From Terebella lapidaria (taxonomy: Eukaryota; Annelida; Polychaeta; Terebellida; Terebellidae), in assembly GCA_949152475.1 (NCBI GenBank), contig OX424558.1, forward strand, positions 38,698,651 to 38,762,650: a DNA stretch of 64,000 nucleotides. Direction: 5' to 3'. Shown here piece after piece: positions 4,982 to 61,009 of the stretch. The notes beneath the pieces were generated by a model, which saw nothing but the letters and a program-made list of their open reading frames with translations, was not told the origin of the DNA and made no database searches. The number at the start of each line of letters is the position of its first letter. Within the stretch, counting starts at the first letter, position 1. The position numbers were made by a program, and so were the translations under genes.

Positions 4982-4991
4982 GTTTGACAGA

Positions 4992-5969: not shown

Positions 5970-5979
5970 AAAACAAGCT

Positions 5980-5984
5980 GACAC
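5980..5984. repeat. BEL target-site duplication, left
   Basis: GACAC directly precedes the 5' LTR and is repeated at 13962-13966 directly after the 3' LTR. Five-base duplications are typical of BEL/Pao integrase. Confidence 0.9.
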
Positions 5985-6239: not shown

Positions 6240-6529
6240 ATGAAATCTCTCCCTCTGCCATTATGAACTAGATTTCTGATCCGGGCTGCCGGGTATTGCG
6301 GGCGGCCGTGTTCTGTGTTACAACTTTACAGTGTGTAGGCTACAGTAGTGTAGACTGATTTACTCCCGTCATTGTGTCACGAGTGGATGTTGCCGTGATG
6401 CATGCATTTGACTGCCGAGTACAGTAACTGCACTGTAATATTGAGCTTGCACAGTTCAGCTACACTGTGACAGCTGCCAGACTCAGAGGCGTTCGGTGCT
6501 CTGTCTGTGCCAGAACGTGGTCATCTCTG

Positions 6530-6980
6530 CCAGGTGTCATCGCAGCGTGGTCGTCACAGCCTGGTGTCGTCACAGCCTGGTGTCGTCGCGGCGTGTTGTC
6601 GTCGCAGCGTGGTCGTCACAGCCTGGTGTCGTCACAGCCTGGTGTCGTCGCAGCGTGTCGTCACAACCTGGTGTCGTCACAGCCTGGTGTCGTCGCAGCG
6701 TGGTGTCGTTGCAGCGTGGTCGTCGCAGCCTGGTGTCGTCACAGCCTGGTGTCGTCGCAGCGTGGTCGTCGCAGCCTGGTGTCGTCGCGGCGTGGTGTCG
6801 TTGCAGCGTGGTCGTCACAGCCTGGTGTCGTCACAGCCTGGTGTCGTCGCGGCGTGGTGTCGTCGCAGCGTGGTCGTCGCAGCCTGGTGTCGTCGCGGCG
6901 TGGTGTCGTCGCAGCGTGGTCGTCACAGCCTGGTGTCGTCGCAGCGTGGTCGTCGCAGCCTGGTGTCGTCACAGCCTGGT
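6530..6980 (+). repeat. Minisatellite in the BEL leader, 15- and 12-bp units
   Basis: About 450 bp made of interspersed 15-bp units (CAGCCTGGTGTCGTC) and 12-bp units (CAGCGTGGTCGT) with a few variants. Both unit lengths are multiples of three and stop-free, so all three plus-strand frames and two minus-strand frames stay open. Those ORFs are therefore not evidence of protein. The array lies between the 5' LTR and gag. Confidence 0.92.
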
Positions 6981-7637
6981 GTTGATAGCAGATTTGTTGA
7001 CTCTGTTTTGTATTTGATGTCATTGTATGTTGTTTCTCACATGTATGTTTGATAATTTCACGCTAAATATTATATATATGTACACTTGACTAGTATTTTG
7101 TCGATCATTGATGATATGATCTGTTTCATATACATGTGTACTTTGGATAGTATGCATTAATCTTGTTCATTTGTGTTTACTGGTGATCTCAGTAATATTG
7201 TACATGTACCAGTGACCAGTGTTGCTTATTAACATATTTGTGTTGAAGCTCTGATTGTGTTCAAGATATCCATTATCACATTCAGTAATATTGGAATAAG
7301 TATATTTCCAGTAAAATATTGCCAGTGAATTATTTTGATTGTATGTGTCATAATGTGTGTACTGTGATGACAGTGTGGTGATTATTGATTGATTACTCTT
7401 TTCATTCTGATGTTTTTCATGTGAGATCTGTCCATGAAGGTTATTGATCTTGAGTTCACAGTGTAAGACCTATGTTATGTTGAGTCTGTATTGTGTGTTT
7501 TTATAAGCTCTATTGGATTACTGATCAGCTGTTGTGGTCTGTTATGGTATTGAGCTCATTGAATAGTGTGATATTTACTGTATACCGGTAGCTATTACAG
7601 TGGTTCTGATATATTGCATTTGTAAACTTGCGTCAAC

Positions 7638-13580: not shown

Positions 13581-13696
13581 TAGGTAGAATCACCTGTGGT
13601 AAACTTACCTGTGGTATACTTACTCTGTAATCAGCTGAGTTAGTATTGTTCATTTGATGTAAATTTTGAGTAAATGCTCATTTGTGTTTCGCATTT

Positions 13697-13706
13697 AAGG
13701 GGCCGG
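13697..13706 (+). promoter_or_regulatory. Probable BEL polypurine tract
   Basis: AAGGGGCCGG lies immediately upstream of the 3' LTR, where the plus-strand primer is expected. It is purine-rich but interrupted by CC, so the exact primer is uncertain. Confidence 0.5.
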
Positions 13707-13961
13707 TGTAAGAGACGTTATGATGAGTATTATTTTTGGTAGTCGGGTTTTAGGAGACGCCCGGAAGTTCGGTTAGCGTCGATTTTGTTTGGAACGGCAG
13801 AAACCTACAGAGATTTCATGACAGTTGTGAAAGTTGTGGACATTGGAGAAAGATGTGTTGGAAAATTGTACAAGCTTGTGGATGTTCATGGATATCGTGG
13901 AAATATGTGTGATGACAATAAATCGTTTGAACTATAGACGAGACTCCTCGATTCCCTTACA
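13707..13961 (+). repeat. BEL 3' LTR
   Basis: 255-bp direct repeat of 5985-6239 with no visible difference. It is followed by the right GACAC target duplication at 13962-13966. Confidence 0.93.
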
Positions 13962-33300: not shown

Positions 33301-36300
33301 CTGCCATCGCGCTCCAGCAACTCTCAGGCTTCATGCTTGGATATTGTCGAGCGCTGTTACAGAAAGAAGGGATTTTCAAAGGAGGTGTCCGCTCGGATCG
33401 CCCGATCAAATAGAAAATCTTCTCTGGCAGTCTACCAATCAAAGTGGGCCTCGTTCTGCGCTTGGTGCCGTAGCTGGGAGGTTAGTCCTTTCAAAACCAC
33501 TGTCCCCTTGATTTCGGAGTTTCTCTTCGGTCACGACGAAAGTCTTACGGCCCTTCTCAATAGTTTTGAAATTAAAAGACCTAAGACTAGGAATCCCATT
33601 CCCGAGTGGGATCTATCGCTTGTCCTAAATTTGTTGCGTTCCGAACCGTTCGAGCCGCTCGAGAGTACTTCGCTTAAGTTTCTCATGTTGAAGATAGTCT
33701 TCCTGCTGGTGCTGGCTTCCGGGAAGAGACGCAGTGAGCTTCACGCTCTCTCCTTCTCTAAAGTCAAGTGGAAAGCTGATGATTCGGCAGTCCAGTTAGG
33801 AGTTATCCCTAGCTTTCTCGCCAAAACTCAGTTGGCGGGCACTCCGTCTTTGAGTTTTTCCATCCCGGCCTTAGCTCCTTCTCTGGGGCCAGGCCTAGAA
33901 GAAGATGCTAAGTTATGTCCCGTGAGAGCCCTTCGCATTTATGTCTGGCGGACGAGGGAGCTTCGCGTGGGTAAACGTCTGTTGTTCGTTTCGTATCTCA
34001 AAGCTTTTCCAAACAACATTCGTCCGGCCACGATCTCGTCTTGGATTAAGAAGTGCATACTTTTTTGCTACGAGAAATCGCAAGCAAAGAAGTCGTCGGG
34101 GTTCAAAGTTAAAGCACATGATGCGAGGGCTCTCGCGGCGTCTCTCGCATTTGCTAATAAAGTATCTTTGAACAATGTTATGTCGGCATGTACCTGGAGT
34201 TCCCAGAATATATTTACGTCTTTCTATCTCAGGGACTTAGCCTGGCACACGGGCTCCAGTTACGAGCTCTGATATCTGGTAGCCGCTGAGCATCTCGTCC
34301 GGCTGTAGATTTGTACATACTCGACACACTGCACAGATGCACTCCATCTCGGTTCATCGGGGTGGGTTTGCCCCTCTCATTTGCCGTGAAATTTGAGTTT
34401 GTCTGCTGGAGGCAAGTCAACCTCCAGAGACCCCCTCTTCACCTCCATGTGCATCAGAAAAGGTGATTATTTGTATATTTTCCCCTCTTATGTATTATTT
34501 TCTTGCAATTGTCATGTAAATATGTTCTATTTTGGGGGAAATTGCGTATTCTCGCGCAAACCAAGTAAATCACATGGAATTCACATATAAATATCATATA
34601 TTAAATATATTATGATCTCTCTATGTGGTGTTTACTGGAACCAAAATCCCCTATGATGAGTTCCTTCTAGGGTTAAGCCCTCCGCCGGTGCTTATTCTGG
34701 ATTAACCCAAAAGGTTTATTATAGAGGTCGTGTATGGCAATAAATAGGAAGTTTTAATTTATCTAAAACCAGTATTTATTACATACCTACCTCTATAATA
34801 AACCTTAAGAGTGCCCTCCCGCATCCCCGCCTTAACGGGGCAAAATAATGGCGGTCTAGGATCACGTGACCTTTGATGAAATTCATCACCGCATGGAATC
34901 TGAGGGGATTCTGGTTCAATTTTTTCGAAAAAGATTAGGATTTTTCGTCACCAAAAATTTCTTTGAAATTTTATTGTGACAATCAATCCACTCCTCTTAT
35001 TTGAATGTCAAGGTAAGATTACCCAAAAGGTTTATTATGGAGGTAGGTATGTAATAAATACTGGTTTTGAATAAATTAAAACTTCCTGTTTGAAGAAATA
35101 TAGGTACATATTTTGCTTCGTCATACGACATGGATTTCAGATTGGACCCAACAGAAATGAAATGGAAGAATACCAATACCCGTCAATCCGCTGGCATCAA
35201 ATGGCGGATGATGTGACGAAACTACCTCTAAAGAACACTTTCATGGCCGTTGCGATGGACCTGACTGATAACATGTCACCTTACGGAGCGTATGTTTGTG
35301 TGTATATGTAGACCATTCCCATAACTCTGCTTGGTTTTCTCCCTGACTTATTCATTACGTTGTGATTCCCCTTAAGATATCGAAAAATGATATTAGGGAG
35401 TTAACAATGACATTAGTCGTGAGTATCACATGGCTGTTCATGGTAAATATTCAATTGGAGTAATGAACACATCAGCATTAAGTATTTTGGACTACAAAGA
35501 ATTACTTCATTATGGAGAAATTGGTCTAACAGTGAAAACATATCGAAGAAATCTGATACTCTCACGGTTTCAGAGTGCACATCCGAGACAAAAACACAGT
35601 TGCGCAGAGGCTGTCACACGCTGCTATCAACCTTATTTATAACAACGGAAGTGGCTTGCACAACTTTCCGTACCCCACACACGAAGAACTGCTACCCGTC
35701 CAGAAACAACTCCTGATTCAGTTCGGCTTGGGCGTGGTTCAAATTAATGTCCGCACTTATGACGGCTTTGAGGTATTGACTTGTTGAATGAACAAGGACG
35801 AAATATTTTTTTGCCAGATGGCCAGCTTGTTGATGATATGCACCACATGTATATTATCAATATTTTTATACAGGATATAAAACATAATTTGGCCCAAGTA
35901 GCGCACCTTACTCTGTTAATACTACTCACCCACTGAATGTATACCATATTTAATCCGTCTGGCACATTTTTAATCTTCATTGAATTTAGAAGAAATATTG
36001 AGCTGCGCTTCATGGGCCCATACTTTTCACAATTTCTCACAATTCTAGGCCTGTTGCTCAGAGAAATACTCAGACTGCCCGTTGAACAACTCAGTAAACT
36101 GGGTCCCGAGTCCAATCGTCCAGTTTAACGACACCACGATTTGGATTTCGTGGGCGCGGTGTAAGTCGGCTACGATTGCCGCCTATCGGTACGCCTGGCG
36201 TGAGACACCCTGTAGCTACCACCAGTGTGCGATCTACAGCGACTATTCCGGAGACCCGCTGCCGACGTTTACGCGACCGTTATACATCAAACTGAAGACG

Positions 36301-39221: not shown

Positions 39222-42200
39222 CTACAGTTTGGTCAGTTTAACTCTGTTTTGCGCATTGATGGTATTCATCACCGTTTTCTTTTTCTTCATTTCCCTCTGC
39301 ACTGGCCAATTGTTCACATCCTGCGTCCTCAGTTTGATGTGTAACGGTCGCGTAAACGTCGGCAGCGGGTCCCCGGAATAGTCGCTGTAAATCGCACACT
39401 GGTGGTAGTTACAGGGGGTGGACCGCCAGGCGTACCGATACGCTGCAATGGTAGCCGTCTTGCACTCCTTCCAAGAGATCCAGATATTTGTGGAGTTGGA
39501 CTTGACGATCGGGCTTGGGACCCAGTTCACGGTGGAGTTTAGCGGGCAGTCTGCATAATTGTCCGAGCAACAAGCCTAGGATTGTGAGTGAAGTAATGAT
39601 ACGTATCAAATATAAGAGAGAGAACAGGCTTCATAAATTATCAGAAATGGTCATACCGGTAATACAGTTTGAGCAAAGACGATATTTGATGGTGACTTTC
39701 TGTGATGAGCAACACATGATTATTCAAAAGTATTATGACCAAAATTTCTCTTCTTGGTTTATTTTTGGTTTATTATAGAGGTTATGTATGGCAATAAATA
39801 TACTACACAATATCTCCATTAGTATTGTCAGAAATACACAAGACTGTTGAGACCCATTGATATACGCTTTTGCGTGTTTGGGAATCGGAAAATAAAGTTT
39901 ATACAAAAAATTAGCCCAAAGGCTAAGATAGGTTACCGGACAATTTCGGTTTGGCCATGGCAGCATTGGCAGGGATTTACCAATCAAGGTCATCCGTATG
40001 AACTTCGATGTAACCTAACCATTACATGTATGTGTGCGGCATTTGATATTCTATATGTTGGGTGGAATCGTTTAGGCCGCTCAGGTCAATTTACACATTC
40101 CAAGGTAGACATTTGGCACTCAAGGTCATCTGACGTCAAGTTCAAGGTCATCATTAGTTGTGCCATATATGTCTTCCTATATGTTCATAATGCAAACATG
40201 AGCTCTATCTGCAAGCATTTCATCTACAAAGGCAAATCTGGGCATTTTTTGACCCCAAAATGGCTGTTTTGACCTTTCAAGGTCATCCAAGGTCAAATTC
40301 AAGGTCACCACACAAGTCGCCATATATGACTTCCCATTTGAAAGTGCCAATTTCTAAGCTCTATCTTCAAGCGTTCTATGAGTACAGTCCTGACAGCTCC
40401 CATTATGAAGGAAAAATTAGCCCAAAGGCTAAGATAGGTTACCGGACAATTTTGGTTTGGCCATGGCAGCATTGGCAGGTAACAGACCTTGAGATTTACC
40501 AATCAAGGTTCGCAGTGTAAACATATGACCTTGGGATTTACCAATCCAGGTCACCCGTATGAACTTCGATGTAACCATTACATGTATGTGTGCAGCATTT
40601 GATATTCTATATGTTTCTAAAGGAATAAAAAGAGTTTATTATAGAGGTAGTGGTATGGCAATAAATATATGACCTTGGGATTTACCAATCAAGGTCATCC
40701 GTATGAACTTCGATGTAACCTAACCATTACATGTATGTGTGCGGCATTTGATATTCTATATGTTGGGTGGAATCGTTTAGGCCGCTCAGGTCAATTTACA
40801 CATTCCAAGGTAGACATTTGGCACTCAAGGTCATCTGACGTCAAGTTCAAGGTCATCATTAGTTGTGCCATATATGTCTTCCTATATGTTCATAATGCAA
40901 ACATGAGCTCTATCTGCAAGCATTTCATCTACAAAGGCAAATCTGGGCATTTTTTGACCCCAAAATGGCTGTTTTGACCTTTCAAGGTCATCCAAGGTCA
41001 AATTCAAGGTCACCACACAAGTCGCCATATATGACTTCCCATTTGAAAGTGCCAATTTCTAAGCTCTATCTTCAAGCGTTCTATGAGTACAGTCCTGACA
41101 GCTCCCATTATGAAGGAAAAATTAGCCCAAAGGCTAAGATAGGTTACCGGACAATTTTGGTTTGGCCATGGCAGCATTGGCAGGTAACAGACCTTGAGAT
41201 TTACCAATCAAGGTTCGCAGTGTAAACATATGACCTTGGCAGGGTATGCCAAACTGGGAAAAAAATTACTGGTCCATTGGACCAGTAAACATTTCGATAT
41301 TACCAGCCCAGAGCAATTTTTACTGGCCCAGAATTCATAAGTCACACCCAACAAAATAGTGGAATTGAGATATGCATGGCGATATGTAGATACGTTGTAG
41401 TATATTAAGCAAATAAATTGACATTGTCAGCTTGAATTGTGCATATATCATTTATTTCCAATCAGCCGTCTTACTTCCCCCCAGCCTCAAGCTGAGGCGT
41501 ATCATTCTCATGATTTGAAGATCCAAGATCTGGTTGAATAATATATTACTGACAAATGAAATATTTTACTATATTAAGAATTTATTTTACTAGAGATATG
41601 ATATTTTTGCTGATGAAAACTTTCCGGCCACCTGGGCCAGTGAAACTGTTATTATTACCAGCCCAGGATGTTTTTTACCAGTCTTGGGCTGGGGCTGGTG
41701 ACTTTGGCATACCCTGCCTTGGGATTTACCAATCCAGGTCACCCGTATGAACTTCGATGTAACCATTACATGTATGTGTGCAGCATTTGATATTCTATAT
41801 GTTGGGTGGAATCGTTTAGGCCGCTCAGGTCAATTTACACATTCCAAGTCAGACATTTGGCACTCAAGGTCATCTGACGTCAAGTTCAAGGTCATCATTA
41901 GTTGTGCCATATATGTCTTCCTATATGTTCATAATGCAAACATGAGCTCTATCTGCAAGCATTTCATCTACAGAGGCAAATCTGGGCATTTTTTGACCCC
42001 AAAATGGCTGTTTTGACCTTTCAAGGTCATCCAAGGTCACCACACAAGTCGCCATATATGACTTCCCATTTGAAAGTGCCAATTTCTAAGCTCTATCTTC
42101 AAGCGTTCTATGAGTACAGTCCGGACAGCTCCCATTATGAAGGGAAAAAGTGGCGAAAATTTTCTAAGTCCAAAATTTTTTTCAAAGGGTGAAAAAAATT

Positions 42201-45200: not shown

Positions 45201-48200
45201 GCCTGACAGACAATCTCTACATTTATAAGCACATATATTCTACATAAATCTAACAACTTTTACTGCACACCCTTCATATGCTCAAATATTGATTAGAAAA
45301 ATACAATGCTGAGTTCATAGAGCAATATTTATTCAAAAAGCTGCTCAACAGATATCCCAGTTATGACCAACAATAGCTTAGTGAACAGCACTGTTCAGCA
45401 TCATACAAAGTTTATTCAACGGATCATCAACTCAACATTTTGATTGCTTCCAGCGAGTAACAATATTTGAATAATCTACATTATACAACATGCCACTTAT
45501 CTACATTATACAACATGCCAAAAACAAAACTTTGTACAGTCAGTTTGATACTTTGTGAATAAATAACAAAAGAGTCACCTCATTTCATATCTCAAGGTTT
45601 TTTGTTAAATCTTTTCAATTTCTGCGACATCTACTTCGGTCCACTTTGCACGGCTCACTGGCTTTTTCAGTTTTGCTCTTGCTAACTCAGGGTAGTTGCC
45701 AGAAAAGGTCAGATGACGCTCAGATCCAGGATGTTAACGTATTGATGTCCGGGCAGTACTCAGATCAAGGTTAGTGTAAGTGGGAGCACTGCTAGGATCT
45801 AGCCTGTCTGGAAAAAAACATAGATAACATTTATTTTCTTAGAAAATAATCCAATACATGTATATGATTCGGCTGATTCTATTCTGTACAGTATCAGAAA
45901 TATTATTATACTAACTGCAATTTAGATATGTACCTTCCATTGTGATTCCACTCAATTACCAGTAACCAGTTATTTTCAATGCATTCATAACATTTCGTGG
46001 CTTAAATGTTAAATGCACAACAAATTGTCTGACAAGAATAACTCTGTATACAATCATAAACCAATCAAAAGGAGGCTCAATTTATGCAATATTTATGGCT
46101 GACAATACAAACCTGTGATATCTGCGTATTGTAATTCACTTTGGTGCTGTTTAATCTTGTGAGCAATGTCTTTCAAGCATTCATGGCTCCTCATGGATCC
46201 ATCTCCTAAAAGAACAAGAATGTATTAATATTTAACCACAGTCAAATTACTTCCCTACTAGCATCAATGCAAACCCGCAGACACAAGTTTGGACACACAA
46301 CCACAATCAATACATAGTTTTAAACGGTTACGACAAAAAAAAAATTACTGACAATCAAAGTAGATTTGCGTCAATGGAACACATGAATTAGGAGCCAAAA
46401 ATCAACGTACCTCTTGTACCTGAGGTGCAAAACCCGTATTTGTTACTGTTCCAAATTCCTGCTCTTGTTGTGGTGTCGGGATCCGACAAGAATCACAAGA
46501 CATCCTGGGTGTAGCTTAATAGTAAACCGATACTGGTCAACTCCTCTGAAAGACACAAATGCAAAATGCAACTAATGAATAAAGTGATAATTATGTCCTA
46601 AATGTTTGACTGAAATGTTTTCTTATTCATGTCTGCGATATCATAGTAGAGTGTTTACAGGAGGTCAGTATAAAATGAGGTCAGTATTCTTCACAGTCCA
46701 TTTGCTATTTTCACGTAATTATAAGCACCAAATCGATTGCAGTTTTGTTGTTCATCCATTTACTTGTATCAGGTTTCTCAGTCTTCGTGTATTAAACTTT
46801 ACATAAATCTATTGGGCCTAATAGAAGCATGTGCCCTTACACGGCCCTAATAGAATAGCGCCCTGCCCCCCCCCCCCCCCCCTCCTGAAAAAAACTGTAA
46901 TGTTTTCAGCTTTATAACTGCCCTTGTATCCTCATAACAATGGTCTTATAATGTTTTATCTAGGCTATTTTGTCAGCAAATTAACACATAACAAACACTA
47001 TATTATATATGATATCAATAATTAAATTATTAATTAAAGATGTGCACTATTAAATGTTGAGTCTTGCATTGGAGCACCGCTCTTCCATTGGGACTAATAA
47101 GATAACATAAAATCATAGATTTACAGGATGAAGCTCATGCAGCTGAGACATTCTGTCTATGCATTTAACTAGTCCTGCAGCCGCTCTATCTGTGCCTATT
47201 GCACAAAGACCGTAGGTCTAACCGAGTTGAAAATGTAAAAATTACATAAGTGGCCGTAACTTCAGTACTACTCAACATAGTGACTTGTGAGTTTAAAAAT
47301 AATATAGGTGCATTGGATAGCTTGTTAAAGATCATGTCCAGGATGATCTGCTAAAAGAACTGTAAAAATGTTGCCGATGTGAGAAATGTCATGAACTTTA
47401 TTTCGGGGTGATACAATGATAATAATACTTACGGCATTATATCAGACCGCACGAAGTTTTGAACAAAATGCCCCATTCATCCTCCATCTCACGGACCTGT
47501 GCAGGCAATGGGAGAGGCCATTTCTTCCATTTTATGTACACAAACATCCTGGAAATGAAATAAATGATCATTGGTATAATCTAAAACAGACAATTCTCAG
47601 TCATAGCATATATTTGTTATGTGCACATTTACCACCACAAATTTTACATGTCAGCCACTTTGTGTTCTACTTTGGGGTTCTCTCTGCCAAACTTTATATC
47701 CAAACACACCATACCATGTCATGAATACCTATGTCGTACCAAAACCTCCTTCAACCTTGTGTAAAATATCTGCCTGAAATTCTGTGTGCCTTTATCCTGT
47801 TTATTATCCATACATAAACAACACTTCTTCCCGAAGGTATTTGTATAATATCTTCGGGAAGAAGTGTTGTGGATGATCAGTCAATACAACAGTCAATATT
47901 TGTTCTATTAAATATTTTATTTTTATTTTGTTTGAATGTCTGCAAACTTATAGGTTTCTCAGCAAATCCATTTCTGCGAAACTACGGTGCTCAAAAAGCT
48001 AAACATGCACTTATATAGCAACTATTTCCGAACTGTTGTAACATATTTCATGATTTTCCCACGTGACAAATTCTGTCAGACGAATCAGCTCGGAATTTAC
48101 CTAAACATAACAAATTTCTCTGTTTAACAAGAATTTTTTCCTGCCAATACCTGTGAGTCTTTTCAGTTAAAAAGTTTGTGTGGCTTTATTGTCCATACTT

Positions 48201-51200
48201 CTGTGTTTATTCCAACAACATGTCTCTACTATTCCCTACCAAGACTTATGTGTCTTTTCAGTCCAAATTTGTGTGGCTTTATTGTCCATGCTTCTGTGTT
48301 TATTCTAAAAACATGTCTCTACTATTCCCTACCAAGACGTGCGTGTCTTTTCAGTCCAAAGTTTGTGTGGCTTTATTGTCCATACTTCTGTGTTTATTCT
48401 AACAACATGTCTCTACTATTCCCTACCAAGACGTGTGTCTTTTCAGTCCAAAGTTTGTGTGGCTTTATTGTCCATACTTCTGTGTTTATTCTAACAACAT
48501 GTCTCTACTATTCCCTGCCAAGATTTGTGTGTCTTTTCAGTCCAAAGGTTGTGTGGCTTTATTGTCCATACTTCTGTGTTTATTCTAACAACATGTCTCT
48601 ACTATTCCCTGCCAAGACTTGTGTGTCTTTTCAGTCCAAAGTTTGTGTGGCTTTATTGTCCATACTTCTGTGTTTATTCTAACAACATGTCTCTACTATT
48701 CCCTGCCAAGATTTGTGTGTCTTTTCAGTCCAAAGGTTGTGTGGCTTTATTGTCCATGCTTCTGTGTTTTTATTCTAACAACATGTCTCTACTTTTCCCT
48801 ACCAAGACTTGTCTGCTTTTCAGTCCAAAGTTTGTGTGGCTTTATTGTCCATACTTCTGTGTTTATTCTGACAACATGTCTCTACTATTCCCTACCAAGA
48901 CTTGTGTGTCTTTTCAGTCCAAAGTTTGTGTGGCTTTATTGTCCATGCTTCTGTGTTTATTCTAACAACATGTCTCTACTTTTCCCTACCAAGACTTGTG
49001 TGTCTTTTCAGTCCAAAGTTTCTGTGGCTTTATTGTCCATGCTTCTGTGTTTATTCTAACAACATGTCTTTACTTTTCCCTACCAAGACTTGTCTGCTTT
49101 TCAGTCCAAAGTTTGTGTGGCTTTATTGTCCATACTTCTGTGTTTATTCTGACAACATGTCTCTACTATTCCCTACCAAGACTTGTGTGTCTTTTCAGTC
49201 CAAAGTTTGTGTGGCTTTATTGTCCATACTTCTGTGTTTATTCTAACAACATGTCTCTACTATTCCCTGCCAAGATTTGTGTGTCTTTTCAGTCCAAAGG
49301 TTGTGTGGCTTTATTGTCCATGCTTCTGTGTTTTTATTCTAACAACATGTCTCTACTTTTCCCTACCAAGACTTGTCTGCTTTTCAGTCCAAAGTTTGTG
49401 TGGCTTTATTGTCCATACTTCTGTGTTTATTCTGACAACATGTCTCTACTATTCCCTACCAAGACTTGTGTGTCTTTTCAGTCCAAAGTTTGTGTGGCTT
49501 CATTGTCCATGCTTCTGTGTTTATTCTAACAACATGTCTCTACTTTTCCCTACCAAGACTTGTGTGTCTTTTCAGTCCAAAGTTTCTGTGGCTTTATTGT
49601 CAATGCTTCTGTGTTTATTCTAACAACATGTCTCTACTTTTCCCTACCAAGACTTGTCTGCTTTTCAGTCCAAAGTTTGTGTGGCTTTATTGTCCATACT
49701 TCTGTGTTTATTCTGACAACATGTCTCTACTATTCCCTACCAAGACTTGTGTGTCTTTTCAGTCCAAAGTTTGTGTGGCTTCATTGTCCATGCTTCTGTG
49801 TTTATTCTAACAACATGTCTCTACTTTTCCCTACCAAGACTTGTGTGTCTTTTCAGTCCAAAGTTTCTGTGGCTTTATTGTCCATGCTTCTGTGTTTATT
49901 CTAACAACATGTCTCTACTTTTCCCTACCAAGACTTGTCTGCTTTTCAGTCCAAAGTTTGTGTGGCTTTATTGTCCATACTTCTGTGTTTATTCTAACAT
50001 GTCTCTACTTTTCCCTACCAAGACTTGTGTGTCTTTTCAGTCCAAAGTTTGTGTGGCTTTATTGTCCATACTTCTGTGTTTATTCCAACAACATGTCTCT
50101 ACTATTCCCTACCAAGATGTGTGTGTTTTTTCAGTTCAAAGTTTCGGTGGCTTTATTGTCCATACTTCTGTGTTTATTCTAACAACATGTCTCTACTATT
50201 CCCTGCCAAGACTTGTGTGTCTTTTCAGTCCAAAGTTTGTGTGGCTTTATTGTCCATACTTCTGTGTTTATTCTGACAACATGTATCTACTTTTCCCTGC
50301 CAAGACTTGTGTGTCTTTTCAGTCCAAAGTTTGTGTGGCTTCATTGTCCATACTTCTGTGTTTATTCTGACAACATGTCTCTACTTTTCCCCGCCAAGAC
50401 TTGTCTGCTTTTCAGTCCAAAGTTTGTGTGGCTTCATTGTCCATACTTCTGTGTTTATTCTCACAACATGTCTCTACTTTTCCCTGCCAAGACTTGTGTG
50501 TCTTTTCAGTCCAAAGTTTGTGTGGCTTCATTGTCCATACTTCTGTGTTTATTCTGACAACATGTCTCTACTTTTCCCTGCCAAGACTTGTCTGCTTTTC
50601 AGTCCAAAGTTTGTGTGGCTTCATTGTCCATACTTCTGTGTTTATTCTGACAACATGTCTCTACTTTTCCCTGCCAAGACTTGTGTGTCTTTTCAGTCCA
50701 AAGTTTGTGTGGCTTTATTGTCCATACTTCTGTGTTTATTCTGACAACATGTCTCTACTTTTCCCTGCCAAGACTTGTGTGTCTTTTCAGTCCAAAGTTT
50801 GTGTGGCTTTATTGTCCAAACTTCTGTGTTTATTCTGACAACATGTCTCTACTTTTCCCTGCCAAGACTTGTGTGTCTTTTCAGTCCAAAGTTTGTGTGG
50901 CTTTATTGTCCATACTTCTGTGTTTATTCTGACAACATGTCTCTACTTTTCCCTGCCAAGACTTGTGTCTTTTCAGTCCAAAGTTTGTGTGGCTTCATTG
51001 TCCATACTTCTGTATTTATTCTGACAACATGTCTCTACTTTCCCTGCCAAGACTTGTGTGTCTTTTCTGTCCAAAATTTGTGTGGCTTTATCGTCCATAT
51101 TTCTGTGTTTATTTCAACACGTCCATGTTCTTGTGTTATTCTCAAGATCAGTTCAACTATATTTTCCCAAACCTCTGTGTTTAATTGATCCACCGTGGGT

Positions 51201-54200
51201 TATTGTGAATGCCTACCTGAATTGCATGCTGAATTCGGCCTTGTTTTACCCAATATTTGTGAGTTTAATCAGTTAATCTGTTCATCACTTATGTGTTTTT
51301 AATGTCCATGTTTATGTGTTTCAGTTTACCTAAATAAAAAATCATGCTCAATGAAGCTCTTGATAGCCTCATAACAATGATTTTCCTTTAATATCATGTG
51401 CATCTATGCAACTTCTAAAACAAATTCACACTCTAGATCTACTGAACTCGATTTAGGAAAACGTTCAGCTTTTGGGCGCAGCAAAACACCACATTATCGC
51501 CCACTGTGACTTGCAACTATAAGGGTCTTCGTTTACATTACCAAGTCATATTTTACTAATTCGACAAATCTAATTGATATGCATCTCCTTCAATTTACTG
51601 TGCATTGCTAGACCAGACATACAGCATAAATTATTTCGTAGAGAGTGGCGGTCGAGACCCTGTGAACAGCCGAAACACGAAAGTCCCACAAGAAGAATGT
51701 CTGACACCGCCACTCCCGTTTTCTATTCTGATTTCTTCTGTAAATCTGTAATCGGTGTTACTTTCACGGTGGAATTTCCATCGAGTTTGGTATGTTGCAG
51801 AGATACGTACAGAAAACAACGAATATACAAGTTAAAACAAGGTAAAAACAAATCTTTTTCCTTCTGATCCTTACCTCAAATTTTCGTCTGACGCCATTTT
51901 GGATGACGAAAATGCGCATGCGCACGCAACCCGGAAAAAGAGACCAAAAGTATTGCACAATGTGCACCATACTCTATGATCGTCATGATGCACCCATATA
52001 AGGCATGTATTTTTTTCATGCAGTGATGTCCATACTTGGACAAAAATTCACGTGATGGACATTGGACAAAACATTGTGCGACTTCACAGGAAACGAACGA
52101 GAAACACACAAAGCATCATTTGGCGAATTTTTGGAGGATGACTTGTGTGGCTAGTCCCACAGTACGAAAAAGACACACAATGACCTATTGGGCGGAAATT
52201 AAAACACACAAGGTATCAGACGTGCGAACGGACGGACAGACGGACGGACGGACGACGGACGCAACGCCATGCCAATAGGTTATCGGACCAAAGGTCCGGT
52301 AACCTAAAAAGTGCCGAAAATGCTCCCATTATGAAGGAAAAAAGTGCCGAAAATTTTCTAAGTCGAAATTTTTTTCAAAGGGTGAAAATTTTTTTTTGCC
52401 TAGAAATGGCCCAAAATGGATAGTAATGTTATTTGGGGCGAAAAAAAAATTTTTCGCCGACTCGTGAGAAATTCAAAATGGCCGCCACACTGAGATCGGC
52501 GATTCAAGGGCAACAAAACTTATACACATCACAGAGGTATATAAGAGGAATCTTTTTAAGCAAAAATTTCAAAACTGATCAGAGAGTTTTTGAGAAAATA
52601 CAGACCAGGTGCAAATTTGAGCGTTTTTCGACCCAAAAATGGCTGTTTTGACCTTTCAAGGTCATCGAAGGTCAAATTCAAGGTCACCACACAAGTCGCC
52701 ATATATGACTTCCCATTTGAAAGTGCCAATTTCTAAGCTCTATCTTCAAGTGTTCTATGAGTACAGTCCGGACAGCTCCCATTATGAAGGGAAAAAGTGC
52801 CGAAAATTTTCCAAGTCCAAAATTTTTTTCAAAGGGTGAAAAAAATTTTTTGCCCTAGAAATGGCCCAAAATGGATAGTAATGCGATTTGGGGCGAAAAA
52901 AAAATTTTTCGCCGACCCGCCAAAAATTAAAAATGGCCGCCACACGGAAACCGGCAGATTTAGGGCAACCAAACTTATACATATCACAGAGGTATATGAG
53001 GGGAATCTTTTGAAACCAAAAACTCAAAACTGATCAGACAGTTTTTGAGAAAATGGCCGTCAAAGTCCTAAATTGAGCGTTTTTCGACAAAAACGGCCGC
53101 CATTTTGAAAAAAATGCGAAAATCAAAAAACAAAAAAAAACCTCCTTCTCAAAATATTTTTAGGCATTTTTGTGCAAAATTTCAGAAAGATTCGATCGTT
53201 AACTTTAAAGATAAAAATGTTAACGCCGGACGGACGGACGGACGGACGGACGACGGACGCAACGCCATGCCAATAGGTTATCGGACCAAAGGTCCGGTAA
53301 CCTAAAAAAAATACACAAGACCCTTTTCTTGCTTATTTATGAGTGTACATCAGAAAATGGTATTCTGTATTTCTGACAAATTCCTGATGATACCAGAATT
53401 CTTGTTATGTATTTCTGATGTTATACAATACCTCAAAGCCATCATATGTCCGGACGTTGATTTCAACCACACCAATCCCAAACTGGATGATAAGTTGTTT
53501 ATCGGCTGGTAACAGCTGTTCCTTCGTCGGATAAGGGAAGTTGTCAAGGTCTGTTCCTTGGTTATAGATGGAGTTGATGGCAGCATGCGACAGTCGCAGT
53601 GCAACTGTGTTCTTATCTCGGATGTGCACTCTGAGAAAAACACAAGAAAATTGTTCAGGAATCAATTGTGATATCAATGTACGGTACAAAAAAGCAACAG
53701 TTCGAGTAATCACGATCAGCCTATTTTAAATTCATCTTGGTAAAAATTTGGCGTCAAGAATCATTACTGTTTCTTAATGTCTCAAAGTTTCTAAAGCATA
53801 TGTAGTTTTAAGTTACATGAACACATTTTAATTGTAGTCGGTATTGAGAGTTAGTGGTATGCATAATAACTACACGACATGCATTGACAAACAAAGTATG
53901 TAGGTATGCATAAAGAGTATACAAATCTGCCCTATGTATAGGATGTTCACGTAAAGCATGCTCTATTAGAACTGTAGATACAAGCAAATCTACTCCAGGG
54001 ACCTTTGCACTCAAGCACTGGTCTACATGCATGGATCCTGTGTTTCGAGGCCAAACCAGGCACCCCATATTTCTGATTCAAAAGGATGAACATTGGAATG
54101 ATTAAAGGCCATATGAGACAAGTGGATCTTAACACATAATCCATTGTATGCTTTCAACAGTGCAAGTCCCCATGCAAAGTGACACACAAGATCCTAATCT

Positions 54201-57200
54201 TCAGAATGGAAAATTCAAATGGAAATGCGAACAGGACAATATACATAGAGAAGATAAAATGGCATCGATAATATTCAGCAGTGAAAGGAGTGAGACTTGG
54301 ATATAATTTTGAGGATTTGGAGAATAGATTTTTTTTTTACATATAGCTGAGAAGATAGATAGTACAGACAATAAACGACAATCAATGCCAACTCAATAAC
54401 GAAGCCAAAAGAATTAACATACGGGCCGGACGGTGAGATATGATCCGTTAGGTCCATCGCGACAGCCATAAACATGTTCTTGAGCGGCAGTTTGGTCACA
54501 TTGTCGCCCATTTGGTGCCAGCGGATTTGTGGATAGCCAAACTCATACTTGGGGTTCTCATTGGGGCCAATCTGTCAACAGGAATTGATTGGATATGAAA
54601 AGGGGGGGGGGGGGAGGGGCAGAGTAATAAGTATTGTTGGTGACCTGATAATGCATAATGGTCATGCAGAAACCTTGGGGATTCCTGAAAGGCAGAAAAA
54701 CCTCAATGTTCATCACTACCATGCTTTCTGAAAGTGAACATGCATCAGGATCTCACAACGAACAACCAACGATATTACTGAGGTGCATGAGACCACCTGT
54801 TGCCATGGTAACAAACTTAGTACTGGTGAAGCGGTACAGGATCGACAAACTTAACATCTAAATTAGCAGTAAACCATCTCAGGGGAAAAACTATAACATA
54901 CAGACACCAAGTCATGGAAAACCTTTGGACATGCAACATGGACACATTAGTTTATTCCCAAATTGTTCATGCCGAAATCAAGACCAAGAAGACCCTCTAA
55001 CTACCATATTTTACGACATATCCAATGCTGTGATTGACATCATGCCATGCAAATACTGATACCTGGGATATAACTGATTCCATGCAACATTTCAATAACT
55101 TTCCATGCAAATTATCAACTGCATTTGATTCCCCAATGCAGGCAAAAGCAGGAAAATCAACAGCAGACTGGGAAACCTTGCACAAAGGCACGTACGAGCT
55201 GTAAGGGGAGTCAGCATCGGTCAGATCCATTGCGACCGCCATAAACATGTTGTCCAGTGGCACCTTGGTCACGTCATCGCCCATCTGATGCCAGCGAATC
55301 GACGGGTACTGAAACTGCGTCACGTTGTTTGAGATTGGTCCAATCTGCGTGGGGGGAGGGGGAAGGAGGGAGGATTAATAATCGTCAATAAAATAGCGGA
55401 CGTACGGATAGTATGGCGAGTATTCGTCTGTCAGATCCATGGCAACGGCCATGAATGTGTTGTGCAGTGGCGTCCTTGTGACGTCGTCAGCCATCTGGTG
55501 CCAGCGGATTTGTGGGTAGCCAAAATCAGTGGCATTGCTGAAGCCAGCCGGGCCTATCTGTTAATGTTGGAAATCTTGTCAAGAGCAGAATGCAAGAGTC
55601 AAAATCACGGCTGAGATAAGATGGAGCACATAAAGTATATTCCTGGACATTTAACAACATTTGAGTTTAAATTCAAACAGGAGATTTCTATGGAAAGCCG
55701 GTGTGACATGCGAGAAGTGATAATGTGAGCAGCAAATTAACATGTGACCTGCAAGTTAGCCTATAAACTGCGACATGATCAGATATGCGACCTGCGAGCT
55801 ATAAACTGCAACATGCGAGTTAAGTTTACAAACTTCACTTGCGTGAAACAAAATGCAACTTGAATATCCTACACATTTTTTCGTATCAAACCATGGTTTA
55901 CAACGGACTAAGTCATAGTTTATAGTTCGCAGGTCGCAGGTCGCTTCTCACATGTCGCTTCTCGCATGTCGCACCGACGTTCCATAGATTTCAATCATGT
56001 ACTAGTTATTTACTAATGTTCAACTATATTTTTTTTAATTCTTAGAAAGGTGTGTTTAAATAGGATCAAAATTCACTCTCCTTCAGATAACTCCCTTCAG
56101 ATATTTGACCAGTAGAGTTTTACCTGTACAAAGCCGAAGGGGAAGTCATCTGGGACCTGACCTCCCGTCGCCTCGTGGAACTTCTTCCTCCAGTCTGTGA
56201 TCATCGCCGGGAACGAGCAGTTATACTGGTCCGTGTGGTAGTAGGTGTTGGCTTCACCTTGAACAAACAAGCAAAAATAGATACTATTTGGTATGTTCTG
56301 TTCTCGCTAAAATGTCTGACTGATGAGAATTCCATGACAGATTCAACCTTTTCAGCAGAGTACAAAAATTTTCCTCTATTCTTTGAAGACTATATTCCAC
56401 ATATCACAGGCATCCACAGAAAAGAGGCCTTTTCTGATTAGCACAGATTTCCTCCGTACCTTGGTACCAGATGGCGCCTTTGATGGTCATGTTGATCATG
56501 GGATGGATCATGGCATTCCACAGCACACTGTTATTTGTCGGGACGCCGCCGTTTGCCTGCGCCACGAATGGATCGTTCTCCCTCAACACATTGTACTCCG
56601 CCTGGGTCATCCTTCGGGGAGCACCAAGAGAGACAGATATTGGAAAACCTTAGTTTTTATTGTCTATTTGTTGTATTTATTTGAGTGCAGATTAGATTTT
56701 CAAAACAGGAATTTCATCAAATTTTGCTGAAATCTATATATTGAAGAATGGTTATTATGTACCAATAACAGTGAGCAATCCACTCTATCTGGCTACTCGA
56801 GAGATAACCACCAAGGATTTATTACTGACTTTCCGTCCTTGAGCCCGCAGGTGTCCAGTGCCTCTGGAGACGACCAGCACTCGACCGGTGTCCCGCCCCA
56901 CGTCGTATCAATCAAACCGATCGGGATGTTGAGCGAGTCAAACAGGTAGCGGCCGAACATAAAACACACAGACGAGAATGACTCCGACCACCCGCCAAGG
57001 CCTCCCTGCTCAGGGGCTGGTAGAGAAATTTGTTTTCCAAGTATATCAGCTTTTTTGCAGTTATTTTGTTTTAGATAACTCAATAAAGGGAATATAACCT
57101 GAATAAAGGGAAGTTAGATAACGTGAATGAAGGGAAGTTCAAAGATAAATATCTACTTACAGCCTCCGAGGCCGGGGTGCATCCATCCCATAATGATAGA

Positions 57201-60200
57201 CTTGAAGTCATAGAGAGGGTCGGTAGACGTTACACGATTGATGTTGAGCAGGCGCAAGTAGTGGTAGTTCCGACCTTCTTCTATAAACAAACTCCTCTGG
57301 AACATCTGTGGAAGATATGGAGAATATAATTATTAACAAACTTTGCCGATAGTGATACTGCCCCGATAGTGAACACTTTGTACATATACATTGTAGGATA
57401 GAAATTTTACTATGAAGATTGGGATAAGGCTATCAAAAAAATTAGCCCAAGGGCTAAGAAAGGTTACCGGACAATACTTATTTTAGATATTAGTAGTTTG
57501 TCCCGTGACCTTGAAAATAAGGTCATTGGTCAATTCAAGGACACAATAATATTCGGCATATGTCATTTCTAGTATGTCCACAACTGATTTCAAGCTGTAA
57601 AGTCAATAATAAGCGAGATATTAGCCATCATGTCCTGCGACCTTGAAAATGAGGTCAAAGGTTGATTCCAAGGTCATAGCAAATTTCAGCTTATATCATT
57701 TCCTATACGTTCATAATTGATTCCTAAGCTCTGAAGTCGATAATATGCGAGCTAATAGCCATTTTGTCCTGTGACCTTGAAAATTAGGTCAAAGGTTAAG
57801 TTCAAGGTCATTACAATGTTCAGAATATATCATTTTCTATATGTCCACAATTGATTGCTAAGCTGTAAAGTCGATAAAAAGCGAGATATTAGCCATTTCG
57901 TTCTCTGACCTTGAAAATGAGGTCAAAGGTCAAATTCAAGGTCATAGCAATATTCAGCATATATCATTTCCTATATGTTCATAATTGATTCCTGTCAGCT
58001 GTAAAATTCATAATAAGCGAGATATTAGCCATTTTGTCCTGCGACATTGAAAATGAGGTCAAAGGTCAAGTTCAAGGTCATGACAATGTTCAGAATATAA
58101 CATTTTCTATATGTTCACAATTGATTGCTAAGCTGTGAAGTCGATAATAAGTGAGATACTAGCCATTTTGTGCTCTGACCTTGAAAATGAGGTCAGAGGT
58201 CAAATTCAAGGTCACGAGAATATTCAGCATATATGATTATGCTGAATGTCAAATTCAAGGTCATGATAATATTCAGCATATATCATTTCCTATATGTCCA
58301 CAATTGATCCCTTAGCTGTAAAATCGATAATAAGTGCGATATTGGCCATTTTGTCCTGTGACCTTGAAAATGAGGTCAAAGGTCAAAATCAACATCATCA
58401 GAATATTTGGCATATATCGTTTCCTATATGTCCACAATTGATTCCTAAGCTGTAAAGTCGATAATAAGCGAGATATTAGCCATTTTGTGCTCTGACCTTG
58501 AAACTGAGGTCGGAGGTCAAATTCGAGGTCACGAAAATATTCAGCATATATCATTTCCTATATGTCCACAATTGATCCCTAAGCTGTAAAATCGATAATA
58601 AGTGAGATATTAGCCATTTTGTCCTGTGACCTTGAAAATGAGATCAAAGGTCAAATTCAAGGTTATCAGAATATTCAGCATATATCATTTCCTATATGTC
58701 CACAATTGATTCCTAAGCTGTAAAGTCGATAATGAACGAGATATTAGCCATTTTGTGCTCTGACCTTGAAACCGAGGTCAGAGGTCAACTTCAAGGTCAC
58801 GAGAATATTCAGCATATATCATTTCCTATATGTCCACAATTGATTCTTAGTCTCTAATTTCAATTTTAAGTGAGATATTAGGCTTAATGTGTCCCATTAT
58901 AAAGCATAGGAGAATTTAACATGGGAAAGTCCCATTTGGGCTGAGTTTGGGCCCAAAATGGCCCACTTCGAGCAATTCAAGGGCAACGAAAATTATACAT
59001 GTCACAGGGGGACATAAGAGGAGTGTCATGCATCAATAAGAAAAAAAGTTACTGGACAGATTTTGAGAAAACGACCATCAAAGTCCAAAATTGGCCATTT
59101 TTCGACGAAAACGGCCGCCATTTTGAAAAAAATGCGAAAATCAAAAAACTAAAAAAAAACCTTTCCTGGAAATATTTTTAGGTATTTTTGTGCAAAATTT
59201 CAGAAATATTCGCCTGTAAACTTTAATGATAAAAATGTGGACGGACGGACGGACGGACGACGGACGCAACGCCACGGCAATAGGTTATCGGACCAAAGGT
59301 CCGGTAACCTAAAATTCTGCTATATCTTTCCTATGGATTCTTGATGTTACTGTAATAAACTTTGTCGAAATTCAGTGAACACACTATTACTGTGTTCACA
59401 CCAGGCCACAATAACGCTGAAATAGCACTTTCACATCGATGGATCTTTCACACATAATTGCGCTATGCTTCCAGTTGGGCAAAAATGCCAAAACATAAAT
59501 ACCTGTATTATTCACTGTGTGTAGACGTTTGATTGTACTAGTTGAGCTACACGTACTGTACTGATATCAACCGGGATCTAGTGGCCACACCCAATATATT
59601 ATTCATTTTTTCATTCAATCATTTCCTATCTGACATAATAATTGCTCCATCTTGCTGAAATTCACATCGTGGTTTCTTGTGAGTATGGACGGTGGACTTT
59701 ACACATCACAATCATGTATCACCTGTGATGTTTGATACATCATAAAAGGTAAAATCACTTTGGTGGACAAAGCGCTATTAGGTGTGAACGCACCAAGTGG
59801 TTTGATAGCGCTATGATAGCTATTATTAGGTGTGAACATAGTATTAATTGCACACTCTGACCTGTTCCATGGTGAACTGCATGTTGCTCTGTCCTGAGCA
59901 GATCCAGAGGTCACCAAAGAACACATCCTTCATGACCTGTGGCTCGTGGTACTGGAGCAGGGCTGAGATGATGTACGGGCCTCCGTCCGGGTATGCGTCC
60001 AGTGTCACATTCCACACCGCAAGGTTACTGAACGGTCCTTTTGGAGGTCAGTATTCAAATGCTCATGAATATTATTTTTTATGTATTAAACATTAGAATT
60101 ATGACATATTGGTCCTAATAGTGGCGCGCGCCCTAATAGTAGAGCGCCCCCCTCTTTTCCCCAAAAAATGTTCAATTTTAGTAAGTAACCTTGTATTTCA

Positions 60201-61009
60201 CAAAATATCTTTGTAATAAAATCTTGGAGTGTTCCAATCCACATATTTATATTATTTGAATCACTATGAAGGGGAAAAAGTCTATTAAGGTATATTATTC
60301 AGTGATTTTCTAAAATTTGACCTCAAGTTTGACCTTATTTATTTTTGCACGCACTGCTGCAGGAGGACTTGCTCTGGCTCGCCGTGCTTCTATTAGGACC
60401 AATACGGTATTGATATTAAAGATATATTTTCTTTACTAGCATTAACTTCACAGATAATGTTCTGTGATGATAATCTGCAAAGTGCAAAATGGCTCTTCAA
60501 TTGTTGGGACAAGTTTGTCAAAATATTCTGAATGCATATTTCAATACAATACAGTTGGTCATCAATAATAAAATTTCCACTCACCTCTCCTGATTGGAGC
60601 ATCATAGTATTGGTTGACTCCGTTGCCGACGAAGTTGATTTTGACAGTGCCATTGATCTGTTTTAGTGGTGCGTAGCCCCAGATCACGGCTTGTTGGGGC
60701 GCCCTCTGCAGGAGCATGTGGTCACCATAGTACGACGCGAACGAGAACTCGGGAGGTGTCCTCAAACTTCTCGCTAAACATGAATAATATCAGTTGTACT
60801 GGATCTTTCTTTATAAATATATCATTAATTTCATACCCACAAACACTTCTTGCTTTTTCCTTTAGATCAACAAAACTCTACTGTAAGTGATACTGGATAT
60901 ACATGTATTATTTTCGCTCTTCTTCACATAATCAAATAACAAACTCACCTGTGCACGAGCCAATGAGAAACAGGAGACTGAGTGTGAAGCAAGCTTGTAA
61001 CCAACCCAT
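39222..61009 (-). CDS. SIAE: Sialate O-acetylesterase, copy B, with triplicated exon 8
   Basis: Paralogue of copy A, read leftward. Exons: 61009-60949, 60773-60585, 60037-59862, 57305-57161, 57016-56830, 56611-56460, 56257-56124, exon 8 as one of 55557-55406, 55344-55196 or 54571-54423, then 53630-53432 and 39575-39222. With exon 8a the sum is 1749 bp (582 aa); with 8b or 8c it is 1746 bp (581 aa). A signal peptide spans about residues 1-20, Ser is in CSGQSNM (about 133), KGAIWYQG is present, and the catalytic His is in VHIRDK (about 401 with 8a). Exons 3, 4, 5, 7, 9 and 10 have exactly the same lengths as in copy A. Intron 9 is about 13.9 kb and holds most of the repeats listed below. The function should match copy A; isoforms may differ in substrate preference. 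Confidence 0.92.
39902..42640 (+). repeat. Tandemly duplicated TE fragments rich in TCAAGGTCA
   Basis: A segment of about 560 bp (39972-40530) is repeated almost exactly at 40677-41239 (offset 705), and a third, partly different copy runs from 41717. Each contains TTAGCCCAAAGGCTAAGATA or its neighbours, GGTTACCGGACAAT, and clusters of CAAGGTCA. The third copy leads into GGGGCGAAAAAAATTTT-type sequence and a (GGAC)n run at about 42582-42615. The frames of 86-141 codons across it are not genes. It lies in SIAE-B intron 9. Confidence 0.85.
41240..41716. mobile_element. 477-bp TIR element, CAGGGTATGCC ends
   Basis: Ends are CAGGGTATGCCAAA and the complement TTTGGCATACCCTG. Flanking CCTTGG occurs on both sides (41234-41239 and 41717-41722), and the uninterrupted target sequence GACCTTGGGATTT is preserved at 40525 and 40671, so the insertion point is defined. 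The interior has GACCAGT/ACTGGTCC motifs and no transposase. CAGGG ends suggest a hAT relative, although the visible duplication is six bases, not eight. Confidence 0.8.
42803..45121. mobile_element. TA-flanked TIR element with a LINE inside
   Basis: Left end CAGTGGGGTCCAAAAGACTT and right end (complement) CAGTGGGGTCCTTTAGTCTT, each bordered by TA (42801-42802, 45122-45123). No mariner transposase is visible. The interior is largely the LINE fragment at 42890-44700. Probably a small Tc1/mariner-type MITE split by a LINE. Confidence 0.75.
42890..44700 (-). pseudogene. Non-LTR retrotransposon (LINE) RT fragment
   Basis: Minus-strand frames 44681-43941, 43980-43645 and 43584-43048 together encode the C-terminal part of a LINE ORF2. 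RT motifs are YGFRKDRSCIDHVF, FIDMEKAFD, SGVRQGDNLSPTLFSLF, LLYADDIVLIAES and NNYKYLGVIMD, then a CNLCHLNEIEDELHFLLTC zinc-ribbon tail. Frame breaks near 43960 and 43620 make it inactive. It is 5' truncated, with no endonuclease domain seen. The AT-rich 3' end near 42890 carries TACAAA repeats on the transcript strand. Confidence 0.88.
45124..47817. other. SIAE-B intron 9 sequence, nothing recognised
   Basis: AT-rich intronic DNA with a poly-C run at about 46864-46883. Two motifs of type CCTAATAGAA at about 46817 and 46848 resemble the termini of the MITE at 60109-60402 in a rearranged form. No exon or RNA gene is recognised. Confidence 0.5.
47818..47870. repeat. Perfect 19-bp hairpin
   Basis: ACAACACTTCTTCCCGAAG (47818-47836) and its exact complement (47852-47870) are separated by 15 bases that can extend the stem by a few pairs. 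The size (53 nt) is short for a microRNA precursor. Confidence 0.85.
48165..51120 (+). repeat. 94-bp satellite, about 31 units, higher-order structure
   Basis: The unit contains TCTTTTCAGTCCAAAGTTTG, TGGCTTTATTGTCCA, ACTTCTGTGTTTATTC and ACAACATGTCTCTAC. Variant units recur with a 564-bp (6 x 94) period between about 48.5 and 49.9 kb, for example the short TTGTCTGCTTTTC variant. The right half (50.2-51.0 kb) is more homogeneous and carries TGCCAAG and TTCTGACAAC. As 94 is not a multiple of three, the reading frame rotates each unit, which creates many overlapping Cys/Phe-rich open frames that should not be called genes. It lies in SIAE-B intron 9. Confidence 0.95.
51330..51955. other. Intronic, nothing recognised
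   Basis: No repeat or gene recognised between the satellite and the next element. Short open frames only. Confidence 0.4.
51960..52313 (+). repeat. Hairpin-ended TE family, copy with (GGAC)n
   Basis: Ends with a GGAC-type tandem (about 52219-52258), GCAACGCCATGCCAATAGG, then a terminal hairpin in which GGTTATCGGACC pairs with GGTCCGGTAACC around AAA, then TAAAA. The GATACCTTGTG/CACAAGGTATC segment beside the GGAC run also occurs inverted at about 42612-42640, next to another GGAC run. Confidence 0.7.
52320..53308 (+). repeat. Hairpin-ended TE family, long copy
   Basis: Near-duplicate of 42120-42600. It has GGGGCGAAAAAAAAATTTTTC, AAATGGCCGCCACAC, CATCACAGAGGTATAT, TTCGATCGTTAACTTTAAAG, a GGAC run at about 53227-53252 and the terminal hairpin before TAAAA. 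Part of the unit is internally duplicated (52330-52620 and 52786-53100). Confidence 0.8.
54423..54571 (-). other. SIAE-B alternative exon 8c
   Basis: 149-bp coding exon. Acceptor GTTGACAG|ATTGG, donor GGCCC|GTATGT. Starts in phase 0, ends in phase 2. Encodes a 49-residue version of the segment with YPQIRWHQMGDNVTK and MAVAMDLTDHISPSGP. It is the copy closest to exon 9. Its LPLKN matches copy A, but the usual SPY is SPS. Confidence 0.88.
55196..55344 (-). other. SIAE-B alternative exon 8b
   Basis: 149-bp coding exon. Acceptor CCCACGCAG|ATTGG, donor AGCTC|GTACGT. Starts in phase 0, ends in phase 2. Encodes YPSIRWHQMGDDVTK and MAVAMDLTDADSPYSS. Its FQYPSIRW stretch resembles copy A most closely. 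Confidence 0.88.
55406..55557 (-). other. SIAE-B alternative exon 8a
   Basis: 152-bp coding exon, one codon longer than 8b and 8c. Acceptor TTAACAG|ATAGG, donor TATCC|GTACGT. Starts in phase 0, ends in phase 2. Encodes IGPAGFSNATDFGYPQIRW and MAVAMDLTDEYSPYYP, with a possible N-glycosylation sequon (NAT) absent from the others. It is only 61 bp from exon 8b, so splicing 8a directly to 8b would be sterically difficult. Confidence 0.88.
55691..55984. mobile_element. Fold-back MITE with TA flanks
   Basis: 294 bp in SIAE-B intron 7. The ends TGGAAAGCCGGTGTGACATG and the complement of CATGTCGCACCGACGTTCCA are imperfectly inverted, with GCGAGAAG and CTTCTCGC next inside. The arms are full of GACCTGCGA/TCGCAGGTC repeats. 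TA flanks both ends. A related fragment occurs at about 24175-24240. Confidence 0.75.
57437..59313 (+). mobile_element. 1.9-kb hairpin-ended element with 134-bp AGGTCA repeats
   Basis: Most complete member of the family. Left end TTAGCCCAAGGGCTAAGAAA followed by GGTTACCGGACA; right end a (GGAC)n run (about 59231-59258), CAACGCCACGGCAATAGG and a terminal hairpin before TAAAA. The interior is about 10 tandem units of 134 bp (CCTTG anchors at 57509, 57641, 57775, 57909, 58045, 58179, 58362, 58496, 58630, 58764). Each carries TGACCTTGAAAATGAGGTCA followed by further AGGTCA copies. It lies in SIAE-B intron 3. There is no protein-coding region, so it is non-autonomous. Confidence 0.85.
60109..60402. 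mobile_element. TA-flanked MITE, TTGGTCCTAATAG ends
   Basis: 294 bp. Left TTGGTCCTAATAG and right CTATTAGGACCAA are perfect complements flanked by TA (60107-60108 and 60403-60404). It lies in SIAE-B intron 2. No coding sequence. A Tc1/mariner-type origin is inferred from the TA target. Confidence 0.8.

Follow-up and report, generated by a model that had tools for sequence, protein, structure and literature searches.

The window analysed here, a 64-kb stretch of Terebella lapidaria DNA, contains two convergent sialic acid acetylesterase (SIAE) genes: gene A on the forward strand, with coding exons from 24395 to 36402, and gene B on the reverse strand, running from 61009 down to 39222. Judged by sequence similarity, the product of gene B is a sialic acid acetylesterase with a SASA domain. 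Pfam and the PDB were searched with a preliminary join of gene B in which a few junction residues are off. The SASA family was returned (PF03629, 42.6 bits against a cut-off of 24.8), and the best solved relatives were sialic acid acetylesterases, among them 8f9q_A (E = 3.4e-90, query residues 30–453). One of the solved relatives is dog SIAE, as given in the available part of the report (PMC12313940). No relatives were returned for a preliminary join from the viral contig and genome contig collections. The SASA domain, the GQSNM serine, a conserved histidine and similarity across most of the length place gene B within the SIAE/SASA esterases; its esterase activity on O-acetyl sialic acid is putative.

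Gene B has ten exon positions, all read from the reverse strand, and the eighth is occupied by three homologous cassettes between exons 7 and 9. Exon 1 (coding part, 60949..61009) supplies the ATG and a signal-like start and is followed by exon 2 (60585..60773) and exon 3 (59862..60037), which encodes SGQSNM with the catalytic Ser, the role of GQSNM being taken from the available portion of the literature. Exons 4 (57161..57305), 5 (56830..57016) and 6 (56460..56611) lead to exon 7 (56124..56257), which ends in phase 0. The cassettes, here named 8a (55406..55557), 8b (55196..55344) and 8c (54423..54571), are separated by an intron of 61 nt (8a-8b, 55345..55405) and one of 624 nt (8b-8c, 54572..55195). 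Exon 9 (53432..53630) starts in phase 2, and exon 10 with the stop codon (39222..39575) is preceded by a 13,856-nt intron. The neighbouring gene A has a single exon 8 of 149 nt (35141..35289, forward strand).

Other features are also present in the window. A 3-kb minisatellite of 94-bp units in about 32 copies lies in intron 9 of gene B (48135–51113), and an imperfect inverted repeat lies in intron 7, upstream of the cassettes (55687–55988; arms of 34 nt that are 88% complementary and enclose a second, nested pair), which would be a small mobile element or a pre-mRNA foldback. A Pao-type retrotransposon frame of 1984 codons with a Peptidase_A17 domain (7626–13577) is flanked by frames at 4983–5966 and 13938–16475 that appear copia-like by eye, and the elements at 4983–16475 are apparently nested. 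An open frame on the reverse strand (1147–2292) matches Sulfotransfer_2 with 148 bits and is possibly another glycan-modifying gene.

An earlier note on this DNA had described the three exon-8 cassettes, and their coordinates, lengths (152, 149 and 149 nt) and phases all proved correct: each is entered in phase 0 and left in phase 2. The frames are open throughout, free of stops and frameshifts, and the splice sites are intact in every copy, with acceptors AACAG (8a), CGCAG (8b) and GACAG (8c) and donors GTACGT, GTACGT and GTATGT, respectively. A repeat finder grouped the three cassettes as one family, in which the other two match the 8b copy at 69% and 70%; pairwise they are 63–67% identical in DNA and 65–69% in protein. 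No further exon-8 cassette was found in the 64-kb window with a protein profile.

The reading frame imposes a strict arithmetic on this array. All eight inclusion patterns were translated, and the three single choices remain open to the exon 10 stop, giving proteins of 582 (8a), 581 (8b) and 581 (8c) residues, as the note had anticipated in stating that any one cassette joins exon 9 in frame. The other five patterns all stop early: the three pairs and the triple, for which a frameshift had likewise been foreseen, and also the skipping of every cassette. Their premature stops fall 181 nt (none), 323, 272 and 272 nt (pairs) and 472 nt (triple) before the last exon junction. Under the 50-nt rule, stops farther than this upstream of the last junction should trigger nonsense-mediated decay; because the distances of 181–472 nt exceed it, the five unproductive patterns should be subject to decay. 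Retention of the 61-nt intron, by which 8a and 8b would be read through together (362 nt in total, a length that keeps the frame), is ruled out as a productive pattern by an in-frame TAA. The junction itself lies close to a conserved His: exon 9 completes the junction codon with its third base and continues with Val and then this residue. The His aligns with the His of the mammalian SIHPRDK stretches, and we take it to be the catalytic one.

Whether the cassettes are maintained was addressed by sequence evolution. Synonymous sites within the array are saturated (pS 0.76–0.84), with dN at 0.24–0.30 by direct counts, and in a substitution-only neutral simulation none of 60,000 pairs kept AG/GT, open frames and at least 65% protein identity together. 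A codon model, in our own small implementation with gene A exon 8 as fourth sequence and three topologies, rejected neutrality on all three cassette branches under each topology (LRT 25.8, 32.7 and 29.1; p ≤ 4e-7) and on the 8a branch alone (p 0.004–0.011). Neutrality was not rejected for 8b alone (p 0.52–0.66) or for 8c alone (p 0.20–0.48), and for 8b and 8c jointly it was rejected under one of the three topologies (p 0.73, 0.38 and 3e-6). The earlier suggestion that selection acts on every copy thus holds for the three taken together and for 8a by itself, and does not hold for 8b or 8c taken singly: as the single and pair tests are mostly non-significant, the codon model does not establish separate constraint on these two. 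Probable constraint on them rests on their intactness and, for 8c, on comparison with a dead copy.

The dead copy is found at C4:38136000-38136324 (C4 being the contig of the window), 617 kb from gene B, and matches over 330 nt, including the 3' intron, at 77%; across 118 nt it is 87% identical to 8c. It is isolated, no other SIAE exon being present within the 40 kb fetched around it. It carries a TAG stop. An alignment read by eye gives it at least three replacements and two indels of its own, and 8c since the split shows one synonymous change and no replacement, in what is a single case. The ten columns invariant in eight other compared sequences are all kept by the three cassettes.

The genome (761.6 Mb, 438 contigs) was searched for relatives with exon 3, which returned at least nine SIAE-like places, each with further SIAE exons beside it. 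Its mitochondrial COI gives a plausible protein, judged by conserved stretches, when AGA is read as Ser and AAA as Lys, which speaks against the vertebrate and echinoderm codes. Of the nine SIAE-like genes found, gene B is the one that carries an exon-8 array; each of the other eight has one exon 8 in the DNA inspected around it (for gene A the window, for the two pairs 60 kb on C9 and 30 kb on C2, and for the remaining three genes 20, 24 and 20 kb). The phases 0/2 are common to exon 8 of gene A and of four paralogues (155 nt each, read by eye), and from this agreement we conclude that exon 8 is an old, discrete exon. An ancestral single exon 8 would have become a tandem array of three that are used mutually exclusively. 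In the best exon-8 tree, gene A exon 8 is placed beside 8b (bootstrap 71), so that the array would predate the split of A and B; the placement is not significant, trees uniting the three cassettes not being rejected (AU 0.08, 0.15 and 0.29).

Several features of these paralogues are recorded here in their own right. At three separate places, two SIAE-like genes lie together in opposite orientation (C4 38.72–38.76 Mb, C9 13.69–13.74 Mb and C2 10.458–10.466 Mb). The paralogue at C4:19003793-19003951 has CAGQFEM where others have SGQSNM or AGQSNM, with Phe at the catalytic Ser position, and is a possible pseudoenzyme. Genes A and B are 89–94% identical in DNA in exons 2, 3, 5 and 7 (dS 0.15–0.26) and far more diverged in exons 6, 8 and 9 (dS 0.9 to saturated), while the four introns compared align no better than shuffled controls; cDNA-mediated gene conversion could account for this exon-limited patchwork.

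Within the protein, the cassettes differ at 21 alignment columns, chiefly in the loop after IGP and in the stretch that separates MDLTD from the His, which bears out the earlier placement of the variation at the N-terminal loop and in the last residues before the His. IRWHQM and MAVAMDLTD are kept in all three, as claimed, and so is the longer FMAVAMDLTD; the exceptions are the residue directly after IRWHQM and the residue before FMAVAM. At the position of the SPFGSIH Phe, four residues before the His, the aligned residue is Tyr in 8a, Tyr in 8b and Ser in 8c. The Ser of 8c at this aromatic position (SPFGSIH, SPYYPVH) was considered as the mark of a special enzyme and dismissed, as four paralogues also have Ser there. 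The N-glycosylation sequon moves with the cassette, being NAT at N356 in 8a, NVT at N355 in 8b and NVT at N372 in 8c, and none is present in gene A exon 8. Of the 21 columns at which the cassettes vary, 20 are variable in the eight other compared sequences too, the exception being the extra residue of 8a, versus 20 of the 30 cassette-invariant columns (Fisher p 0.017). The cassettes thus vary where the family varies anyway, which counts against a functional reading of the differences.

The earlier suggestion of three esterases that differ beside the catalytic site is consequently upheld for the sequence differences at that place and not for a difference in activity, given that 20 of 21 columns are tolerated in the family. 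The three enzymes would differ in the loop that opens the cassette, in the residues just ahead of the His and in where an N-glycan sits, and, with weaker grounds, their activity or handling may differ as well. The fullest form of the idea is tentative, and we think it less likely than not: that a single SIAE gene gives rise to three esterases of different function in a tissue- or condition-specific manner, with the module retuning the His approach, relocating the N-glycan and shifting O-acetyl sialoglycan preference, policed sterically between 8a and 8b and by frame and decay for the rest. Splicing would then switch the substrate of an enzyme that modifies sialic acids.

The 61-nt intron between 8a and 8b offers a possible physical basis for exclusivity. 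Its adenines, at positions 3, 12, 17, 21, 24, 27, 30, 31, 56 and 60, are confined to positions 3–31 and to 56 and 60, and positions 32–55 form a 24-nt run that is all pyrimidine. Because the later adenines are those at 56 and 60, a normal branch point is predicted to have to sit no more than 31 nt from the donor. Among the other introns measured in genes A and B the smallest has 144 nt, and the shorter of two paralogue introns that were read out, at 74 nt, has adenines at 50–65. In the available parts of the sources, the mammalian requirement from donor to branch site is about 50 nt, and in one substrate assembly failed at 35 nt (PMC6692369); OGDH exons 4a and 4b are kept exclusive by branch points that lie close to the donor, with tropomyosin cited (PMC7969005). 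If the limits of the spliceosome in this animal are vertebrate-like, joining of 8a to 8b would be sterically blocked, since the 61-nt intron offers no place for a normal branch point at a distance of 50 nt. The remaining patterns (8b with 8c, 8a with 8c, none and all) would be removed by frameshift and nonsense-mediated decay. The steric rule does not apply to the 624-nt intron, and no barrier between 8b and 8c other than the frame was found.

RNA pairing of the Dscam type was considered as a further means of selection. Docking/selector complementarity, which the earlier note had proposed to look for, failed to emerge: for two docking designs, 77 and 75 of 100 shuffled sequences scored at least as high as the real one. 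For single pairings among six intron pairs, the best score, between the 8b-8c and 8c-9 introns, was reached by 8 of 100 shuffles, and the others by 32–90. In whole-intron duplex energy, five of the six pairs stayed within |z| 1; the remaining one, intron 7 against intron 8c-9, had z −2.3 with a duplex spread across hundreds of bases, and one of at most 30 shuffles was lower. With scores not above those of shuffles, a docking/selector mechanism was rejected.

The array has the sequence properties listed for mutually exclusive exons in the available part of a human survey (PMC5740500): adjacent internal exons of similar sequence and length, a common frame, no in-frame stop, usable splice sites and, by translation, a non-functional transcript on combined inclusion. 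We favour the reading that gene B carries candidate mutually exclusive exons that are most likely used as such, at a probability of roughly three in four, and the gene probably yields three enzyme versions, with one cassette per full-length transcript. The same survey, in the part available, tempers certainty for a computed candidate of this kind, as 1,399 of 6,541 computed human candidates were verified by reads (PMC5740500). An assembly artefact, or alleles or paralogues merged into a false array, is highly improbable and nothing was found in its favour, given that the cassettes at 63–67% DNA identity and with unlike introns are far from allelic, and that each occurs at a single place, all on one contig.

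It is also conceivable, though unlikely, that a single cassette does the work, with the other two persisting as seldom used remnants that have yet to show visible decay. Such a history would fit the absence of demonstrated constraint on 8b and 8c singly, its detection for the two jointly under a single topology of three, and the placing of the differences at family-tolerated columns (20/21), but it is difficult to reconcile with frames and splice sites that are all intact although synonymous sites are saturated; none of the 60,000 neutral pairs retained such frames and sites together with the protein identity. The dead copy of 8c also argues against it, having already gained a stop and indels while still 87% identical to 8c over 118 nt. 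Less probable again is an array that serves mainly as a dosage switch, in which unproductive patterns serve to reduce SIAE output and the differences in protein are immaterial. The expected decay of all five unproductive patterns, with stops 181–472 nt before the last junction, and the tolerated nature of the variable sites are consistent with this; three intact coding cassettes would, however, be unnecessary for such a switch, because a single skippable 149-nt exon 8 would be enough, skipping alone being sufficient to break the frame. Exclusive use of three working cassettes is accordingly preferred.

The O-acetyl groups that SIAE removes from sialic acids influence binding by lectins and pathogens. 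If the preferred reading is true, the natural isoforms of gene B, with exchangeable modules ending beside the His, would bear on what sets specificity in the SIAE family. Steric and frame/decay devices would be combined in one three-cassette cluster and would be separable by experiment (8a/8b versus 8b/8c). The earlier note knew of no described case in SIAE, and none was found among the matches listed in the literature searched, which mostly lies outside subscription papers. Mutually exclusive splicing is itself a familiar kind of event, and the array is most likely an instance of it in SIAE, for which those literature matches mention neither duplicated nor mutually exclusive exons.

Gene B can be compared with several known systems. 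Mammalian SIAE (PDB codes: 8f9o, 8f9p, 8f9q and 8f9r) belongs to the same enzyme family and shares the Ser and His motifs, but has a single module at the equivalent of exon 8 where gene B has three. The oyster Crassostrea virginica alternative oxidase, in the portion of its report available (PMC5589949), is likewise an invertebrate enzyme with a tandem exon that brings changes near functional sites, and the copies of its duplicated exon 10 are 63.5% similar. That exon is terminal and employs an alternative 3' splice site, whereas exon 8 of gene B is internal; transcripts and a stress response were measured in the oyster, whereas the gene B array is a candidate read from DNA.

OGDH exons 4a and 4b resemble the gene B cassettes as homologous neighbouring exons in the gene of a metabolic enzyme. 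According to the parts available of PMC7969005 and PMC6692369, OGDH and alpha-tropomyosin share with 8a-8b a short intron in which branch point candidates near the donor are followed by a long pyrimidine run. Gene B differs in having three cassettes, in that the steric rule is possible for 8a/8b only, and in that its branch points are predicted ones. Human mutually exclusive clusters, from the available part of PMC5740500, were verified by junction reads, whereas that of gene B is a candidate from sequence. The human clusters resemble it in similar length, same frame and homology, and clusters of three or more exist; 57 (9%) have a donor-to-branch-point distance below 50, and in 377 (60%) joint inclusion shifts the frame, as it does in gene B.
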